Assembly: GCF_020176715.1 (NCBI RefSeq)
Contig: NZ_JAIVMF010000004.1
Coordinates: 186,001 to 250,000 of the forward strand
Length of the DNA: 64,000 nt
DNA from: Stappia stellulata
GTDB taxonomy: Bacteria > Pseudomonadota > Alphaproteobacteria > Rhizobiales > Stappiaceae
Reading direction: 5' to 3'
Part shown: in pieces, positions 36,138-44,524 of the stretch
Layout of the letters: each line of letters opens with the position of its first letter
Numbering within the stretch: position 1 is the first letter of the stretch
Translations under genes and position numbers: made by a program
The notes under the pieces: generated by a model
Databases searched by the model: none
What the model was told of the DNA's origin: nothing
Seen by the model: only the letters and a program-made list of their open reading frames with translations

Positions 36138-36523
36138 GCGTCAGACGCGGACACCCGGGCCGATTGCCGGCCGGGCGCCTGGCCCGGACCTCAAGAACCT
36201 CGCCGGCTGCGGATATCATGATCTTCCCTTTGCCATGACCCGGAGGTCGGCGCGCGTCTGGCCGTGTGTCGTTTGCACGGTGGCAAGACGTCGATGAACC
36301 GCCCGCGGCGGTCTGCGGCGGCGGATTAGAATTCGGAAATTTCAGATTTTTTAGAAAATTATACTGATAACACACGCAAATCGTGTAAAATTGTTATTTT
36401 GGTTGCATTAGAAACTCAGCATCATCCGGCCAAATTCACTTGTAAGTTGAGTTGTCGAATGTCACTCTTCTCTCATAGGTAGATTTCTCAAATTCTTCTA
36501 ATTTATCGCGATGCGAGGACGCC
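36138..36523. other. Non-coding spacer, AT-rich in its second half
   Basis: The first 190 bases are GC-rich with short inverted repeats but no clear terminator. From about 36320 the sequence becomes strongly AT-rich up to the next gene, and no coding frame is credible. This half probably holds the promoter of the four-gene cluster. Several TTTAGAAAAT/TATACT-like boxes are present, but none can be assigned with confidence. Confidence 0.5.
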
Positions 36524-38884
36524 ATGTTTGACATCACCACAGTGCGCGAAATCGATTACGGCCCGAACAGCGTTGTCTATGTCTATCAGGACCACGACAA
36601 TCCCAAGCTCTGGTACATGGTGCCGGTTCCCACGCTGCGGACGTTGAATGGCGCTCCCGCCTTCTCGATCACCGAATACACCAAGAACGGCGGGGGGATC
36701 TCGGGGCTTTGCACCTTCGAGATGGAGCTCGTCCAGCCGCTGGCGGCCCGTCAGGCCGCGGAGCAGGTGCTGGGCGACGACATCAGCTGGGGCGGGTTCA
36801 CCTGGGTCGGCGGCACGGCCTATTTCTACTATGACATTGAGGGCGAGACGGAGGTTCTGGCGGTCGAGCCCACCCTCTACGGGACCAATGTCGCGGCCTT
36901 CCAGATCCCGCTCGAGACACCGGAGGCGCTGAACACCTTCAAGGCCGCCTATTCCGAAGGCGGCGGCGCCTCGCCCTTCCGCATCGAATACGACATGCAG
37001 GTGCTGACCAAGCTTCTCGGCGCCAAGGCCACGGTCAAATACGTCGCCGAAGCCGCCATCCACTACGAGAAGACCTACAAGACGGTTCGCGATACCTGGG
37101 GCAACCAGAAACGGGTCCTGCAGGACGTCAAGCAGGTGTTGCAACAGTCGGGCGCGGGCGAGGTGCATGTGGAAATCGGCGCCGGCAGCACGCAGGAGCT
37201 GGAGCAGCGCGTGCGCGACTGGGGCTGGACGACGCTGGAAAACCAGGTGGCGAACACCGTCGCGGCCGCCGCGACCATGGCCACCGGCCCCAATCCGGTG
37301 TCGGCGACAACCTCCTTCGAGCAGACCTACAGCGAAGACACGGTGATCGACTGGTCGACGCCGGTATCCAGCTTCATGCGCAAGTTCTCGAGCGAGGAAT
37401 GGAACAAGCTCTTCATCAAGGTCGACAACCGCAAGCTGTCGGTGGTGTTCAACCTGATCGGTCAGCTGACCCGTACCGACAATGGCGATGCGGTCGCCGA
37501 ATCCGTAACGGTCACCGTGACTTATCCCACCCGCACGACGGACAACACCTTCGTGCTGATCGTCAAGGACGGCGACCAGTCGTCGATGATCTACGAAGCG
37601 CCGGGAGACTTTTCCGGCGGGTCTTACAACGCCGAGTACAGCTATTCCTATGTCATCGCGTTCAAGGACGGGACGAGCTTCCAGAGCGACCCCGTCACAA
37701 CGTCCGACACATTGATCAACATCACGCCGAATGTCTTCGGCACGCGTCAGGTCAGCTTTATCGGGCAGTCCATTCCGTTCCTAACCGCCTCGTCCCCCAA
37801 CGGCGCCGTCAAGACGGTCAATATCGACTTCTTCTTCGCGCCGCCCTCCGGCAGTCCCGCGATCGTTCAGACGAAGACGATGACCGGAAACGGCGAAGAG
37901 AGTGCGGTTCTTTTCGACAGCTTCTACAATCTCCCGATCGGGCAGGCCTACAGCTATCGGCTGCGCTACCAGATGGCGGACAATTCCGAGGTGATCTCGC
38001 AACCGCCCGGTGCGCTGTCGAGCGCTCCCGACAACACGAACTCCGGGAATGCGGATATCGTGTTCGTGAAGGATCCGAAGGGGTTGTTCACCCAGTTCAC
38101 CCTGCGCGCCTTCAACTATGCCAATCAGTCGCAGGACCTCCTGCTGGTCGATGTCAACGCCCAGTATTTCGATCCGGCGAACGACCCCAACAGCTGGCTG
38201 TTTGAAAACACCTGGTCGAACTGGCAGCCGACCGGACTTCTCAGCTTCGCCGAGCCGCGCTGGAACTTCCAGGCGGTCGATAACACCAATTCGGCCTATT
38301 ACAACATCGCTGGCACGATCTTCTACTCGGACGGCACCGACTTCACGCTCGCGAACTACAAGCAGTCGAGCGAGTACAAGACACTGACGATCACCAATAC
38401 GATCGAGAATTACAGCGTTCTTGTCGACACCACCCTGATTGACTGGACCAAGGTGGCCAGCGTCAATCTGACGATGTTCCAGTTGAAGAAAACGGCGAAG
38501 GAACGCTTTGGCGACACGCTTCCCGATTTCTTCACCAAGCCGCGCGAGGAGATGACCAGCGAGGAACGGGCGACCGCGCTCGGGTCGCAGGACAACCTGC
38601 TGCTGTTCAGCATTCTCAGCCCGGCCGGAACGCCGCAGGTCGACGATCTCAACCGCTACTATGGTGTCCAGCGGCTGCGCGACGACCCGCTCGTCGAGTT
38701 CTATTACACCGCCGTTTACGTGATGAAGAGCGACGGCGAACAGCGCACGCTGACGGACCAGAAGGTGGAAGGAAAGCTGTCGGTGGAATTGCCGGCGCTA
38801 CCGCCGACCACGGTCAAGCCCGGTATCGTGCGTCACAGCATCGAGCCCGAGGCGCTCGCAGCCCATATGCGCGTCGCGGGCTAG
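36524..38884 (+). CDS. Beta-rich 786-aa protein of unknown function (first gene of novel cluster)
   Basis: No family is recognised. There is no signal peptide and no long hydrophobic segment. The first ~280 residues mix strands and helices (YAVE-like AEAAIHYEKTYKTV, NQKRVLQDVKQVLQQSG). From ~300 the protein looks like tandem beta-sandwich modules that repeat a tyrosine-rich edge: YSYSYVIAFKDGTSF, YSYRLRYQMADNSEV and YYNIAGTIFYSDGTDF. The ATG follows CGAGGACGCC, a good ribosome-binding site. It has a somewhat lower GC content than its neighbours. The stop is 4 bases before the next gene. A secreted-effector, toxin or structural role is possible, but nothing in the sequence settles it. Confidence 0.75.
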   Translation: MFDITTVREIDYGPNSVVYVYQDHDNPKLWYMVPVPTLRTLNGAPAFSITEYTKNGGGISGLCTFEMELVQPLAARQAAEQVLGDDISWGGFTWVGGTAYFYYDIEGETEVLAVEPTLYGTNVAAFQIPLETPEALNTFKAAYSEGGGASPFRIEYDMQVLTKLLGAKATVKYVAEAAIHYEKTYKTVRDTWGNQKRVLQDVKQVLQQSGAGEVHVEIGAGSTQELEQRVRDWGWTTLENQVANTVAAAATMATGPNPVSATTSFEQTYSEDTVIDWSTPVSSFMRKFSSEEWNKLFIKVDNRKLSVVFNLIGQLTRTDNGDAVAESVTVTVTYPTRTTDNTFVLIVKDGDQSSMIYEAPGDFSGGSYNAEYSYSYVIAFKDGTSFQSDPVTTSDTLINITPNVFGTRQVSFIGQSIPFLTASSPNGAVKTVNIDFFFAPPSGSPAIVQTKTMTGNGEESAVLFDSFYNLPIGQAYSYRLRYQMADNSEVISQPPGALSSAPDNTNSGNADIVFVKDPKGLFTQFTLRAFNYANQSQDLLLVDVNAQYFDPANDPNSWLFENTWSNWQPTGLLSFAEPRWNFQAVDNTNSAYYNIAGTIFYSDGTDFTLANYKQSSEYKTLTITNTIENYSVLVDTTLIDWTKVASVNLTMFQLKKTAKERFGDTLPDFFTKPREEMTSEERATALGSQDNLLLFSILSPAGTPQVDDLNRYYGVQRLRDDPLVEFYYTAVYVMKSDGEQRTLTDQKVEGKLSVELPALPPTTVKPGIVRHSIEPEALAAHMRVAG

Positions 38885-38888
38885 GGCA

Positions 38889-39914
38889 ATGGCCGACGCC
38901 CTGTCCATGGATGGCGTCGGCGCGGGCCAGGGTGGCGGCGGGGTGGCCGCCAGCTTTTCCGCGCTGCGGGGCCTTGCCAGGGCCGCCACCGACGATGCCG
39001 CGATGCTGGCAGCGGCGGTGGCGCGGTGTGCGCCTTCCGCGTCGTCGTCGGCACCGAGCCGGCTTACGCCGGCCGGTGCGCCACTGGAGGCGGCGGTCGT
39101 GTGGCCGGCGCCGGGGCTGCGGGTCAGCCTCGACCCTTGTCCGGATGCCTCGCCGGGCGTGCGTGTGCGGTCCTGTCGCACCGATATCGCGGAGCCTTTT
39201 ACGGCGGAGCAGGCCGATGTGATGGCGCGCGTTGCGCTGTGGCGCAAGGAGCATCCTGGCCGCTACGGCGGCTGGCTTGGCCTGCGCGTCGTCGACGGGG
39301 AGTTGCGCAAGAAACTCTATCTCGACGTGCCGCAGGGCTGTTCCTGGGAGACGTTCGAGACGCAAACCGTCGGGGCGCCGGCGGTGCTGCCGCGCCGGCA
39401 GATCCGGCTGACGATGATCGGCCTCGATCCTGTGTCGGGCGGGGTGGAGCTCTACTATCGCTGCGGCCGGCTGTTCCCGCCCGAGATTGACACGCTGCTG
39501 CGCCGCTTCGCGCTGGCGGAGCGCGGGGCGGAGGTCGTGGAATTCATCGCGGCGCTGACGCAGCGCACGGTCCGCTTCGAGTTGCCCTCCTTCGACATGG
39601 GTTTCAGTTGCGCCTTCGATGCGCAGGGCCGGGCGCGGGTCTTCACCTGGTATTCCAACGCCCGGGCGCTGCTTGGCCCGCCGGCGCGGGGGCGGGCCGC
39701 GTTGTTGCGCATTGGAACCGAAGCCGGCTGGCCGATGGCCGATTACGAGGCGCTGAGCCGGCCGGACGCGCAGGGTCGCGTGCCCGAACACGGGCTTGTC
39801 GGCGTGATGCTGGCTGACGGGCACCCCCTGCAGGCAACCGCAACGGTCGCGCTGTCGCCGCCCGATGCGGCGGTGCCGCGCGCAGCCATCGCGGGCGAGG
39901 GCTGCCATGCGTGA
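38889..39914 (+). CDS. Unknown 341-aa protein, possible ABBA-type barrel
   Basis: After a Gly/Ala-rich start, residues ~105-280 form a series of predicted strands with Arg/Lys/Tyr at alternate positions: WLGLRVVDGELRKKLYLDV, RRQIRLTMIGLDP, GVELYYRCGRLF, MGFSCAFDAQGRARVFTWYS. Such repeated strands with basic/aromatic residues recall aromatic prenyltransferases (ABBA fold), but this is a weak visual resemblance. The family is not recognised. There is no signal peptide. The gene starts 4 bases after the 786-aa gene and overlaps the following cyclase-like gene by 8 bases, so it is clearly part of the same operon. Confidence 0.7.
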   Translation: MADALSMDGVGAGQGGGGVAASFSALRGLARAATDDAAMLAAAVARCAPSASSSAPSRLTPAGAPLEAAVVWPAPGLRVSLDPCPDASPGVRVRSCRTDIAEPFTAEQADVMARVALWRKEHPGRYGGWLGLRVVDGELRKKLYLDVPQGCSWETFETQTVGAPAVLPRRQIRLTMIGLDPVSGGVELYYRCGRLFPPEIDTLLRRFALAERGAEVVEFIAALTQRTVRFELPSFDMGFSCAFDAQGRARVFTWYSNARALLGPPARGRAALLRIGTEAGWPMADYEALSRPDAQGRVPEHGLVGVMLADGHPLQATATVALSPPDAAVPRAAIAGEGCHA

Positions 39915-40860
39915 CGGGGATCTCGACGGCCTTCTTGCCCTGCAATGCGCATCGGGCGCCTTTCCCTCCACGGTCGAGGGGCCGGAGGGTCGTGTCGCAG
40001 ACGAAACCTGTTTCGTTACCGCGCAGGTCGCGCTGATCCTGGCCTCGCTTGCCCGACAAGGCGCGACGGCGTGTGAAACGCAGCCCGTCGCCTTGCGCCG
40101 GGCGCTGGCGCGGGCGCTCGACTTTGTCGAGACCTGCGCGGTGCCGGAGGTGCCCGGCGCGTTTTCCTTCTACCCGCCCGACGGCACTGCACGGCTCGCC
40201 ATTCGCCTGCCGGCGGATGCCGATGACACGGCGCTTGCCTGGATGGCGCTGATCGCCGGCGGACGCCGGTCGCCGCAAGACGCCGCAACGGTCCTTGCCC
40301 GGCTTTTCGCCGGCCATGGCGTTCGTGCCCCGCGTCGCGGCGATCCGCCTTTCGTGCGCGCGCCGATGGTCCGGACGTGGCTTGAGGCGGAGGCCCCGGC
40401 AAATCCGGTCGACCTGATCGTCAATCTCAATGTGCTGGCGAGCCTTGCCGCCGCCGGTGTCAACCCGGATGCGCATGACGGGTTCGCGGCGCGGCTTTCT
40501 GCGCGTCTCGCCGCCGCCTTGCCGCAGGATCCGCCGTCCCTGTCGCAACTGCGCATGCTGGCGCCTTTTTATGCGCATCCCCGCGAACTGGCCGAGGCGC
40601 TGGCGCGTGCGGTCGCGGCCGGCGGTCGCGCGCTCGCCCCCGCGCTGGAGCGGATCGCACCGCATGCGGCTCCCGGAGCGCATGAGGACGACCAGCCGCT
40701 CTACTGCAATGCGCACGGGCGTCCGCTGTGGCGCTCGCCGGCCCTTCAGGCGGCGCGCCGGTGTCGGGACGGGCTGCCGGAGGATGTCCCGACGCCGTTT
40801 ATTTCATCTTCGATTTCAGGAGGTTCCCATGACATTCATGCCCAGATCCGCATTCGCTGA
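39907..40860 (+). CDS. Terpenoid-cyclase/prenyltransferase-fold-like protein, 317 aa
   Basis: The start MRDGDLDGLLALQCASGAFPSTV followed by DETCFVTAQVALILASLA resembles the first repeat of alpha/alpha-toroid proteins such as squalene-hopene cyclase and prenyltransferase beta subunits (Q-x3-G-x-F type motif). A further repeat-like block is LPADADDTALAWMALIAGG. The catalytic DxDD of true class II cyclases is not evident, so enzymatic activity is open. It overlaps the previous gene by 8 bases, and its last 32 bases overlap the start of the 1231-aa gene. Very high GC, unlike the first gene of the cluster. Confidence 0.65.
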   Translation: MRDGDLDGLLALQCASGAFPSTVEGPEGRVADETCFVTAQVALILASLARQGATACETQPVALRRALARALDFVETCAVPEVPGAFSFYPPDGTARLAIRLPADADDTALAWMALIAGGRRSPQDAATVLARLFAGHGVRAPRRGDPPFVRAPMVRTWLEAEAPANPVDLIVNLNVLASLAAAGVNPDAHDGFAARLSARLAAALPQDPPSLSQLRMLAPFYAHPRELAEALARAVAAGGRALAPALERIAPHAAPGAHEDDQPLYCNAHGRPLWRSPALQAARRCRDGLPEDVPTPFISSSISGGSHDIHAQIRIR

Positions 40861-43800
40861 ACTGTCCGCGGGAGAATTCCCGGCGGCGCGCGCAAGCACG
40901 AAGTACATGGAGACGTTCCAGCTGTCGAAGCCCGCGCTCGGCGGCACCGACATCCGCACCTATCCGAATGTCGCGGGAAACCTCGACCTCTATACGATCG
41001 GCACCAACGACGAGATCTACCGCCTGCGCCGCGGGGAGAACGCCGAGGCGCCCTATCACGACACCAACCTGAAGATCACCGGACGCCAGCTCTTTCTCTA
41101 TTCCTCGATTTCCGAAAGCAGCGATACGCCCAGTATCCTGTCGCTCGGCGGCAACGGCCAACTGCGGTTCGCCTCCTACAAGTCGACGACGGACACCTAC
41201 TTCCAGCAGGAGACCAAGCCGGAGGATGCAACGGAGACCATTCGCCAGTTCCGGGCGGTGCGCGGGGCGACGAACGGCAACATCTACGTCAACGTGATGC
41301 TCGACGTTCCCGGCGAGAGCTTCGGTCTGCTGGCCAACAACTTCTTCACCCCCGGCGAGGACAAATGGAACGGCCCCGTCTGGGCGCCGCTGATGGGGCC
41401 GGGCGGGACCCAGGCCGAGGTCCTCTCGATCGCCATGGTGGAAAACAGCGTCGTGCAGTCGTCCATTCTGGCGATCAGCAAGAACTACGAGGTTCTTTAT
41501 TGCGAACAGGCGAACCGCGCGACCCCGCTCAGGGTGCTTGGCTCCAAGAAGGCGACGGCGCTTTATGTTGTTGTCGACCAGGAGCAGCGGCTCAACATTT
41601 TCGCGGTGGAAAAGGACACCGGCAAGCTGCTGCTCAAGAAGCAGAGGAAGTACCAGTCCGGCACCCTCAAGCAGTTCGATGACTGGATCTATGTCGATGC
41701 GGCGCAGGATGTGAGGCTGACGCAGATCTATGCCTCGATCTGTTTTGACGGGCTGTTGCAGGTCTTCGGCATCGGCGATGACGGGCGGTTGTGGCGCGCC
41801 GGTCAGGTGCCGGGGAGCGGACGCTCCGCCGAGCCCGCCTGGAACACGCTGTTTCCGCTGGGCAACGAGATCCCCAGCGATGCGGGATCCAAGGCCTCGA
41901 TCTTCGCGGTCGGCCGCGACCTCGCCGGCTATGCGGAGGCCTATACGGTGTCGGCCGGCGGCGAGCTCACGCGCTTCTGGCAGTCGCCGACCTCGCAGCA
42001 GTGGTTCGATGAACATGTCACGCTCTTTCGCGGCGACAACGAGATGGTGCCGGTGGAGACCCACGCGCTGGAACTCGTCGTGCTCGACAATGAGGGCATG
42101 CCGATGCCCTTCGCCAAGGTGTCGATCCAGGCGAGTTTCCTGGTGACGCTCTTCGTCGACGGGCGCTCCTACCGGTGCAGCCAGCTCAACAGGGTGGGGG
42201 TCGAGACAGGCCCGAACGGCAAGGTGGTGATCTATCAACGCGCCAATGCGCTCGCCGCAGCCACCCTCTACATCGAAACGCCGTCAACGCTTGCCGGGTC
42301 GCCGCTTGCGGTCGAGCCGAACCTGCAATTGCAGGAGAAGCTGGAAACGCTGTCGGTCGACGACATCAAGAACGCCAAGGACGCCTCGGGCGCCTATCTG
42401 CTGCCGGCCAAGTACCGCAGCAGCGACGAATATGCCCAAAGCCTGCAACAGATCACCCAGTCCTCGATGCAGATCGCCGGGCAGCAGGAGGTCAAGGCGA
42501 AGAAGGTCGCCTATCACGCGGTCCGGCGCGGGCGCACGGCGCGCACCTTCAGTCCGAAGCTCGACCTTGCCGCGATGAACGGCACCACCTGGGCGATCGA
42601 TTTCTCCTCCGGTTTTCCGCAGTATCAGGCGATGACGCTCGATGAGGTCGCCGACTGGAAGGTGTCGAAGCTTGAGACCATGCGCGCCGCCAGCGCCGAC
42701 GGCGCGGAGGTCGCCGGCTTTCTCGGCATCGACTGGGGCGACGTTTGGAATGGCATCAAGAATGCGGCCAAATCCGTCGTCGACGGCCTGGTCAAGATCG
42801 TGGTGGAGATCGTCGACGGCATTGGGCGGGTGCTGTTCGAGATCGCCGGCAAGGTGTTCGAGGCGATCATAGAGTTCGCGCAGCAGGCCTTCGATTTCGT
42901 GCAAGGCGTGTGGAACTGGCTGAAGGTGAAGCTGAAGCAGCTGTTCGAATGGCTGGCGTTCCTGTTCAACATCGGCGATTTCGTGCGCACGGCGGAGGCG
43001 GTCGAGCACAACACCCGCGTGATGCTCGACTTTACCGTCGAGGGCGTCGAGCACGTCAAGCAGATGATCCTCGGCGGCATCGACACGATGAAGGACAGCC
43101 TCAAGGCAACGGTCGACAGTTTCGTCCAGGAACTCAACAAGGCGGACAACCCGACCTACGACCAGTTCTCCAAGCAGGAGGAGATGACCGACGACCAGGC
43201 CTATCAGCTTGAGCACAACCTGTTTTCCAACGCCTATGAGGAAAATGGCGGCAACGCGAGCGAGAAGGGGGAAACCTCCGTCTCGCTGATGACCCAGACC
43301 GCGCTCTCCAGCCCGCTGGAGGGCCTGGTGACGATGCTGGAGGATCTGGCCGACAACTTCCAGTTCGGCGACGGCAAGGAGGCCTTCAACGAGGCGATCG
43401 AATATTTCACCGCCATCGGCGACAATCCGAACGAAGTGCTCAACCTCTTGATGAGCGGCATCGTCAAGGTGATGGAGAGTGTCGCGCTCTTCGCGCTTGA
43501 TGCGGCGAAGGGCGTCATCGCGGTGCTGATGGACCTGATCAAAGACGTGGTGGAGGCGTTCCGCGACGTGCTGTTCGCGGAGTGGGAGATCCCGATCGTC
43601 TCCCAGCTCTACAAGTTCTTCACCGGCAAGACGCTGTCCATCCGCGTCAGCCAGATCGCCTCCTATCTGATCGCCATTCCCACGACGCTGATCTACAAGC
43701 TGGCGACCAACAAGGCGCCCTTTCCCGATCAGGCAGCACTTGACGCCTACAAGAACTACATCACCGTCGACTGGCTGAAATCGAAGTTCGGCATCCAGAC

Positions 43801-44524
43801 GCAGAAAGCGGTTGCCTTCGATGCCAGTCAGGAAAAGGTCGTCGCCCAGATCGCGCTCGGCGTCTATGCCGGTGCCATGGGCGTGCGGATCTTCACCGAC
43901 AATCTGACGGGATTCTTGAGTGCCACAGCCGCCGTGAGCGGCGACAAACCCTCCAAACTGCCGACGAACATCAAGGATTACGTCGGAACCTGGAAGCCGA
44001 AGGGCAAGTCGCTCGCCGGCCTTGCCGCCGTGCTGCTGCGCTACACCACCACTTTCGCCACCATGCCCTGGCTGATCCGGCCCGGATCGCCCGGACCGAG
44101 CTGTCCGGCGGGAGATCCCGGCTTCGGCGGCACCATCTGGATCACCCAGCTCATCTGCGGTCCGACGCGCGGGCTGTTCGTGCTGGCGCTCGTTCCGGGC
44201 GGTCGACCGCGCGTCTATACGGGCGAGATCACCATCTGTCTGTGGGGCGTCGCCAACATGATCATGGTGGCGTGGAACTACAACGACACGAAGAACAAGG
44301 ACACGCTCGCCAAGCTCGGCCTGTCCCGGGCCCTGACCAACATCATTCCCGGCCAGATCGGGCGGATCCTGTTCATCCCGGACGTGCAGGACAAGACCTA
44401 TTTCATTCCCGCGCTCATTGGCGGGGTGCTGCAGGTCGTCGGCTATCTGGGATCGGCCGGGGTGGCCATCGCCGAACTGGTCGAGGTCGGCCAGATGGAC
44501 GAAAGCCAATTCGTCGAATGCTGA
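40829..44524 (+). CDS. 1231-aa propeller/helical protein with hydrophobic C-terminus, unknown
   Basis: No family is recognised. Residues ~45-400 look like a beta-propeller or lectin-like repeat (NLDLYTIGTNDEIYRLRRG, SILSLGGNGQLRFASY, LQVFGIGDDGRLWRAG). An Ig-like stretch follows (LELVVLDNEGMPMPFAKVSI). Residues ~630-1010 are long amphipathic helices (NGIKNAAKSVVDGLVKIVV, FDFVQGVWNWLKVKLKQLF). The last ~180 residues contain several hydrophobic segments (GLAAVLLRYTTTFATMPWLI, GGVLQVVGYLGSAGVAIAEL). There is no signal peptide. AGGAGG precedes the ATG at 40829. A carbohydrate-binding head with a membrane-active tail would fit a pore-forming or contact-dependent effector, as speculation. Confidence 0.78.
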   Translation: MTFMPRSAFAELSAGEFPAARASTKYMETFQLSKPALGGTDIRTYPNVAGNLDLYTIGTNDEIYRLRRGENAEAPYHDTNLKITGRQLFLYSSISESSDTPSILSLGGNGQLRFASYKSTTDTYFQQETKPEDATETIRQFRAVRGATNGNIYVNVMLDVPGESFGLLANNFFTPGEDKWNGPVWAPLMGPGGTQAEVLSIAMVENSVVQSSILAISKNYEVLYCEQANRATPLRVLGSKKATALYVVVDQEQRLNIFAVEKDTGKLLLKKQRKYQSGTLKQFDDWIYVDAAQDVRLTQIYASICFDGLLQVFGIGDDGRLWRAGQVPGSGRSAEPAWNTLFPLGNEIPSDAGSKASIFAVGRDLAGYAEAYTVSAGGELTRFWQSPTSQQWFDEHVTLFRGDNEMVPVETHALELVVLDNEGMPMPFAKVSIQASFLVTLFVDGRSYRCSQLNRVGVETGPNGKVVIYQRANALAAATLYIETPSTLAGSPLAVEPNLQLQEKLETLSVDDIKNAKDASGAYLLPAKYRSSDEYAQSLQQITQSSMQIAGQQEVKAKKVAYHAVRRGRTARTFSPKLDLAAMNGTTWAIDFSSGFPQYQAMTLDEVADWKVSKLETMRAASADGAEVAGFLGIDWGDVWNGIKNAAKSVVDGLVKIVVEIVDGIGRVLFEIAGKVFEAIIEFAQQAFDFVQGVWNWLKVKLKQLFEWLAFLFNIGDFVRTAEAVEHNTRVMLDFTVEGVEHVKQMILGGIDTMKDSLKATVDSFVQELNKADNPTYDQFSKQEEMTDDQAYQLEHNLFSNAYEENGGNASEKGETSVSLMTQTALSSPLEGLVTMLEDLADNFQFGDGKEAFNEAIEYFTAIGDNPNEVLNLLMSGIVKVMESVALFALDAAKGVIAVLMDLIKDVVEAFRDVLFAEWEIPIVSQLYKFFTGKTLSIRVSQIASYLIAIPTTLIYKLATNKAPFPDQAALDAYKNYITVDWLKSKFGIQTQKAVAFDASQEKVVAQIALGVYAGAMGVRIFTDNLTGFLSATAAVSGDKPSKLPTNIKDYVGTWKPKGKSLAGLAAVLLRYTTTFATMPWLIRPGSPGPSCPAGDPGFGGTIWITQLICGPTRGLFVLALVPGGRPRVYTGEITICLWGVANMIMVAWNYNDTKNKDTLAKLGLSRALTNIIPGQIGRILFIPDVQDKTYFIPALIGGVLQVVGYLGSAGVAIAELVEVGQMDESQFVEC

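Follow-up and report, generated by a model that had tools for sequence, protein, structure and literature searches.

A conserved four-gene unit of Stappia that may tie a prenyltransferase-cyclase pair to large, possibly toxin-like proteins

A 64,000-nucleotide stretch of Stappia stellulata DNA (contig NZ_JAIVMF010000004.1, positions 186,001 to 250,000; hereafter the window), from a genome of 4.5 Mb, carries four consecutive genes, here called genes 1 to 4, which form a real, conserved and unannotated unit. We propose, with a probability of roughly 0.4, that this unit encodes a protein system that acts on membranes, is probably toxin-like and brings its own pair of genes for lipid tailoring. 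Gene 2 would transfer a prenyl group onto an aromatic side chain, most likely that of a tryptophan, and gene 3 would protonate and cyclise the transferred chain through its DxDD acid. The acceptor would most likely be a partner protein or peptide, with gene 1 as first and gene 4 as second candidate, because gene 1 is the constant third partner of the pair and no other biosynthetic gene was seen to be common to the lineages that carry it (cross-BLAST of the called frames returned no other shared gene). The terpene cap could help the complex to enter or anchor in a target membrane, which the lectin-like head of gene 4 may recognise. The catalysis, acceptor, secretion, target and toxicity of the unit are what we infer from the observations below.

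The arrangement of the four genes is strongly preserved within the genus. Gene 4 was found in 13 of the 101 genomes searched, namely its own and 12 of the 13 others of the same genus, the sole same-genus genome without a match being 89% complete, and not once among the 87 genomes of other genera. All four genes occur in the same order, at identities of 40-97%, in each of the 12 same-genus regions retrieved, so that the arrangement is not a product of chance. The genes lie on the plus strand with spacings of +4, −8 and −32 bases, as the first-pass annotation had reported; with start codons assigned by script, genes 3 and 4 overlap by exactly 32 bases in all 12 same-genus regions, and genes 2 and 3 by exactly 8 bases in 10 of the 12. 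The AT-rich spacer described in that annotation is equally recovered: the guanine-plus-cytosine (GC) content is 35% in the 200 base pairs (bp) 5' of gene 1 and 70% in the preceding 60 bp, and the 200-bp leader has 31-40% GC in all 13 loci compared (11 Stappia-type and two Nioella). A hydrophobic N-terminus is absent from all four proteins, as judged by hydropathy and not by a signal-peptide program, which agrees with the earlier statement that none has a signal peptide. The GC content at third codon positions (0.85, 0.85, 0.75 and 0.87 for genes 1 to 4) is close to that of nine other genes sampled in the window (0.83-0.90 in eight of them and 0.71 in the ninth), and a recent foreign origin is thus not indicated. 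No family scores above its cut-off for any of the four genes in Pfam or NCBIfam.

Genes 1 to 3 also occur together, as a trio, in other lineages. An alignment-based scan of a named genome collection for gene 1 yielded at least 12 loci (eight Stappia-type, three Nioella and one Calothrix plasmid), 11 with all four genes and the Calothrix locus with the first three; this number is a lower bound, since the scan relied on two short peptide patterns and missed Azospirillum, for instance. A plasmid search added p5 of Azospirillum lipoferum 4B, where genes 1, 2 and 3 are adjacent and gene 3 overlaps at its end with a Tn3-type transposase gene, for which reason it was trimmed at L002:19100 in alignment A4 (G and L numbers are our handles for genomes and loci). 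The class and family surveys found the trio in one further alphaproteobacterial genus (g89; genomes G139, G364 and G837), with extra gene 1 paralogues in G139 and G837, and gene 2 is present in four of the ten genomes of the g89 family. The three-gene module is rare: gene 1 was found in 3 of the 385 genomes searched for the class and in 3 of the 398 for the phylum, gene 2 in 4 of 398 (apparently the same phylum sample) and both genes in three phylum genomes, the own genome being included in each count. Loci L032-L042 overlap in genomes with L020-L031 and L063 and were not summed, and alignments A5 and A4 omit L027, L028 and L040, which are close to rows that were kept. The first-pass annotation had proposed that homologues never found together would refute the cluster; they do occur together, both in the same-genus regions and in other lineages. 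Neither gene 1 nor the helical module of gene 4 has a match in phage records at E 1e-3, and gene 3 has no relative in viral contigs.

The link to toxins comes from the genes that accompany the trio. In Stappia and Nioella it is accompanied by gene 4, and in Azospirillum lipoferum p5 it is preceded by MakB, MakA and a shorter MakA/MakE-like gene (L002:11481-14967), that is, by genes of the type of MakABE, the tripartite alpha-pore-forming toxin of the mak operon. The MakB and MakA genes score 408 and 430 bits with the NCBIfam models (cut-offs 240 and 320), and the shorter gene falls below the cut-offs. On plasmid3 of Calothrix sp. NIES-4101 (L005:14267-21496) a free-standing version of the gene 1 N-terminal domain (109 bits) comes after the trio, as do two proteins that are possibly nuclease-like and a 1494-residue protein without a match above chance. 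The two proteins may have a DNase-I fold, one according to NCBIfam MnuA (E 2e-5, below cut-off) and the other by eye; neither has a Pfam match at E up to 10. In G532, a genome of another class, the neighbours of the gene 1 relatives resemble peptidase and amidase genes by eye. The pattern is one of a constant trio with changing neighbours, of which only those in Azospirillum are securely toxins. The toxin complex, prenylated or carrying a lipid, which the first-pass annotation had suggested, is the reading preferred here, with MakB/MakA in Azospirillum as one independent toxin setting and with toxicity and prenyl acceptor both putative. In a broader version, which we consider somewhat doubtful, the trio would be transferable, its gene 1 scaffold, ABBA prenyltransferase and single-domain DxDD cyclase building a cyclic terpene on a large folded protein and so giving different cargo (lectin-helical proteins, Mak-type pore formers and perhaps others) a terpene membrane anchor.

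Genes 1 to 4 are themselves unlike MakABE, as no Mak model matches them. An assignment of genes 1 to 3 as MakC or MakD was ruled out by size, these proteins having 131 and 126 residues in the part of PMC11484084 consulted, and the main text of PMC8617504, as far as available, makes no mention of Azospirillum. PADLOC returned no match for genes 1 to 4, two gene 1 relatives and one Calothrix cargo protein, which leaves a role in anti-phage defence without support.

Gene 2 is a presumed prenyltransferase. Its predicted structure is a PT-barrel made of beta-beta-alpha-alpha units with ten strands, and the nearest bacterial enzymes in fold are PriB, IptA, CymD and TleC, which bears out the ABBA-like protein of the first-pass annotation. 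Residues E67, R78, K142, Y144, E187 and Y189 are invariant in all 18 trio copies. The stretch with E67 and R78 aligns with TleC, and we take these two residues to be the conserved Glu (acceptor base) and the diphosphate Arg of the first two strands. ABBA enzymes of the dimethylallyltryptophan synthase (DMATS) type carry a Lys-x-Tyr on strand 4 and, on strand 6, a further Lys/Arg-x-Tyr; the corresponding pairs in gene 2, mapped by strand order and not by superposition, are K142-x-Y144 and E187-x-Y189 (18/18). Gene 2 differs from PriB, IptA, CymD, TleC and 5/6-DMATS in its Glu at strand 6 and its fixed neighbour genes, and shares only 13-18% identity with them. The distant gene 2 relative in G532 has a Lys at position 187, and two solitary copies, with neither gene 1 nor gene 3 in the retrieved stretch (G352, L062:9242-10222; G267, L066:9117-10073), have altered conserved residues.

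For gene 3, a terpenoid-cyclase-like toroid in the first-pass annotation, this assignment gains support from motif and profile. The sequence DADDT (DGDDT in one copy) is present in 17 of the 18 trio copies, and the family profile matches a squalene-hopene cyclase in the PDB (E 0.0084). Of 230 class genomes, nine contain a match to the profile, which in five falls within a frame of 647-690 residues (E 5e-5 to 9e-4 per genome). Three of these long frames (L078, L080 and L082) were examined by Pfam and all three are squalene-hopene cyclases, with DxDDTA near the match; those of L079 and L081 were set aside because the script detected no frame with DxDDT that spans the match point. By hhalign, the gene 3 family aligns with the C-terminal domain of these cyclases at 70% over 78 columns, DxDDTA included. 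Gene 3 thus resembles the C-terminal DxDD domain of squalene-hopene cyclases in the motif and its flanking stretch, and differs from these enzymes in having one domain of about 300 residues and no N-terminal domain; at 317 residues it is too short for both Pfam domains. Judging from these similarities, a squalene-hopene cyclase ancestry of gene 3 is likely.

Two possible distant relatives of gene 3 were seen elsewhere. In G104 (L050:406-3188) a HEAT-repeat protein with a DADDTA stretch adjoins a UbiA-family prenyltransferase gene; it was matched by the six-row gene 3 profile only (E 5.4e-4), was not recovered by the sixteen-row profile (10 of 68 candidates scored) and is not used as evidence. 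The other, in G133, has no prenyltransferase among the neighbours scanned.

The first 400 residues of gene 4 resemble the PLL/CV39L propeller lectins. NCBIfam CV39L matches them with E 2.7e-6 (26.7 bits, cut-off 350) and the Nioella homologue with E 1.3e-10, while the gene 4 profile matches PDB entry 8q82 with E 1.6e-5. The propeller-like head proposed in the first-pass annotation is therefore favoured by these matches, although they stay below curated cut-offs, and the sequence supports a head of related propeller repeats, not a filed PLL/CV39L member. Gene 4 shares with these lectins the propeller-type repeats at its start, and differs from them by scores far below the cut-offs and by the fusion to a long helical, hydrophobic part. 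In this part the amphipathic moment reaches its maximum within residues 651-700 and 851-900; on the Kyte-Doolittle scale, several windows of 19 residues exceed 1.4. The helical module is present in 3 of 398 phylum genomes and also in plasmid proteins, where it is joined to other heads, among them a LamG domain (Undibacterium). A match of the helices to apolipoprotein A-I (E ~0.03) was taken as amphipathic-helix resemblance only. Propeller lectins bind glycans, and a putative glycan-binding head joined to predicted membrane-active helices would fit, without proving, a secreted membrane-acting protein.

Gene 1 gave chance-level scores only in Pfam and NCBIfam, and no match to PDB sequences in single or profile searches. 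A model built from 13 sequences (predicted local distance difference test 59.7, predicted template modelling score 0.30) consists mostly of strands, with two long helices at residues 188-209 and 224-253; at these scores the beta-sandwich fold proposed earlier is not settled. Three gene 1 paralogues lie close together at L051:7925-15548 and L064:9829-18770, and one relative, P0012 (L051), has an inserted stretch that looks OmpA-like by eye and where Pfam finds no match.

Table 1 Features of the four-gene unit (positions in the window)
Feature	Position	Strand	Remarks
Gene 1 (P0001, 786 aa)	36524..38884	+	Mostly-beta partner protein; putative carrier or acceptor; N-terminal domain (~residues 17-189) also found alone
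Gene 2 (P0002, 341 aa)	38889..39914	+	ABBA / dimethylallyltryptophan-synthase fold; presumed prenyltransferase
Gene 3 (P0003, 317 aa)	39907..40860	+	Single-domain toroid, terpene-cyclase-like; DADDTA at 40216-40233
Gene 4 (P0004, 1231 aa)	40829..44524	+	Head resembling propeller lectins; amphipathic helices in the middle; hydrophobic segments close to the C-terminus
AT-rich leader / presumed promoter region	36324..36523	+	35% GC over 200 bp
PLL/CV39L-like beta-propeller region of gene 4, residues ~28-397	40910..42019	+	NCBIfam CV39L and PDB 8q82 profile match
Helical module of gene 4, residues ~636-965	42734..43723	+	Common to plasmid proteins with other heads
C-terminal hydrophobic segments of gene 4, within residues 1004-1221	43838..44491	+	19-residue Kyte-Doolittle windows >1.4

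The large proteins may also be read without any toxicity. The unit may have a structural or storage role, and genes 1 and 4 could form an extracellular or surface assembly for adhesion, matrix or predator defence, which the prenyl pair would lipidate for anchoring. We regard such an assembly as unlikely: the conservation in the genus (gene 4 present in all but one of the 13 other genomes, the four genes in 12 regions), the glycan binding of propeller lectins and the OmpA-like stretch of P0012 are in its favour, whereas the position of the Azospirillum trio behind the MakB/MakA pore-former genes is not what it would lead one to expect.

For the joint action of genes 2 and 3 there is a precedent in a 2026 review (PMC13290415), of which the relevant passages describe NctPC as an ABBA-fold prenyltransferase fused to a cyclase like the monodomain MstE. 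NctPC attaches geranylgeranyl to tryptophan before cyclising the chain; NctPC and ChrPC are both prenyltransferase-cyclase fusions acting on tryptophan, and the same passages also report prenyl transfer with subsequent cyclisation on the tryptophan residues of peptides. Genes 2 and 3 are likened to NctPC by description, as an ABBA prenyltransferase working with a monodomain-type cyclase. As far as those passages go, they differ from NctPC and ChrPC in being distinct genes with a fixed place next to those of the 786- and 1231-residue proteins, and the seven leaders compared (373-400 bp, up to four Trp-bearing small frames each) showed no frames that were alike by eye.

The same pair could instead make a small, free meroterpenoid (a prenylated, cyclised tryptophan or other aromatic), which gene 1 would bind, store or carry, with gene 4 as a separate lectin-type effector. 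DxDD cyclases act mostly on free substrates, and the structure titles of PriB, IptA, CymD and TleC show free tryptophan or indolactam, in agreement with such a product; it nevertheless appears rather doubtful to us, as the constant third partner is a large protein and the cross-BLAST brought out no further gene common to the lineages.

Several observations weigh against a membrane-active system with lipid tailoring. Genes 1 to 4 match no known toxin family in Pfam or NCBIfam, including the NCBIfam Mak and Nhe models and Pfam HBL, and their proteins have no known export route; a type VI sheath had no match in the own genome. The prenyl acceptor is a candidate only (genes 1 and 4). In gene 1, W192 and W277 are kept in 18 of 19 rows, and are a hint at most, because Y31, Y156, Y334 and Y482 are kept in all 19; the conservation of the two tryptophans may be structural and not related to an acceptor role. 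The trio is not obligatory: G532, one of the three phylum genomes with both genes 1 and 2, combines three relatives of gene 1 with a gene 2 relative that is only distant (29 bits), and no gene 3 could be found in it. Taken alone, the sequence evidence for genes 2 and 3 is weak. The hhalign support for gene 3 amounts to only the 70% over 78 columns given above, and gene 3 lacks the second domain of squalene-hopene cyclases, which, in view of the monodomain cyclase MstE cited in the consulted part of PMC13290415, argues only against classical membership. The gene 3 copy of Stappia taiwanensis (L030:8032-8850 / L033:13423-14238) lacks an internal stretch including DxDD, which may reflect a deletion or an assembly fault; it is the one miss among the 18 copies under L030, and under L033 it was omitted from alignment A10 and enters no count. 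In gene 2, E187 presumably occupies, by strand order, the position of the second diphosphate-binding Lys of DMATS. Finally, the mean identities to ten Stappia relatives (82, 56, 60 and 81% for genes 1 to 4) show that the large proteins are held tightly and that the enzyme-like genes 2 and 3 diverge faster.

This last difference, the Glu in place of the expected Lys and the gene 3 copy without DxDD are what one would expect if genes 2 and 3 were catalytically dead and acted as scaffolds that bind or chaperone the products of genes 1 and 4. Such a loss of catalysis seems decidedly improbable, as the six gene 2 residues (18/18) and DxDD (17/18) persist in the aligned rows even where identity falls to ~27%, while some of the six are missing from the two solitary copies of gene 2.

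The own genome also contains, on another contig (G000:C7:146497-146964), a contractile tail sheath gene that is not tied to the unit and may belong to a prophage or an injection system.

In bacteria, the lipidation of proteins is mostly known as the attachment of acyl chains. Among the matches listed in the open-licence literature, there is no description of terpenoid tailoring of full-size toxin proteins or of a toxin-linked prenyltransferase-cyclase pair, and what is possibly new here is such a pair tied to large, possibly toxin-like proteins. The module names two concrete enzymes, genes 2 and 3, and two acceptor candidates. If the proposal is true, several Alphaproteobacteria and one cyanobacterium would possess both a new type of protein modification and a new group of membrane-active proteins.

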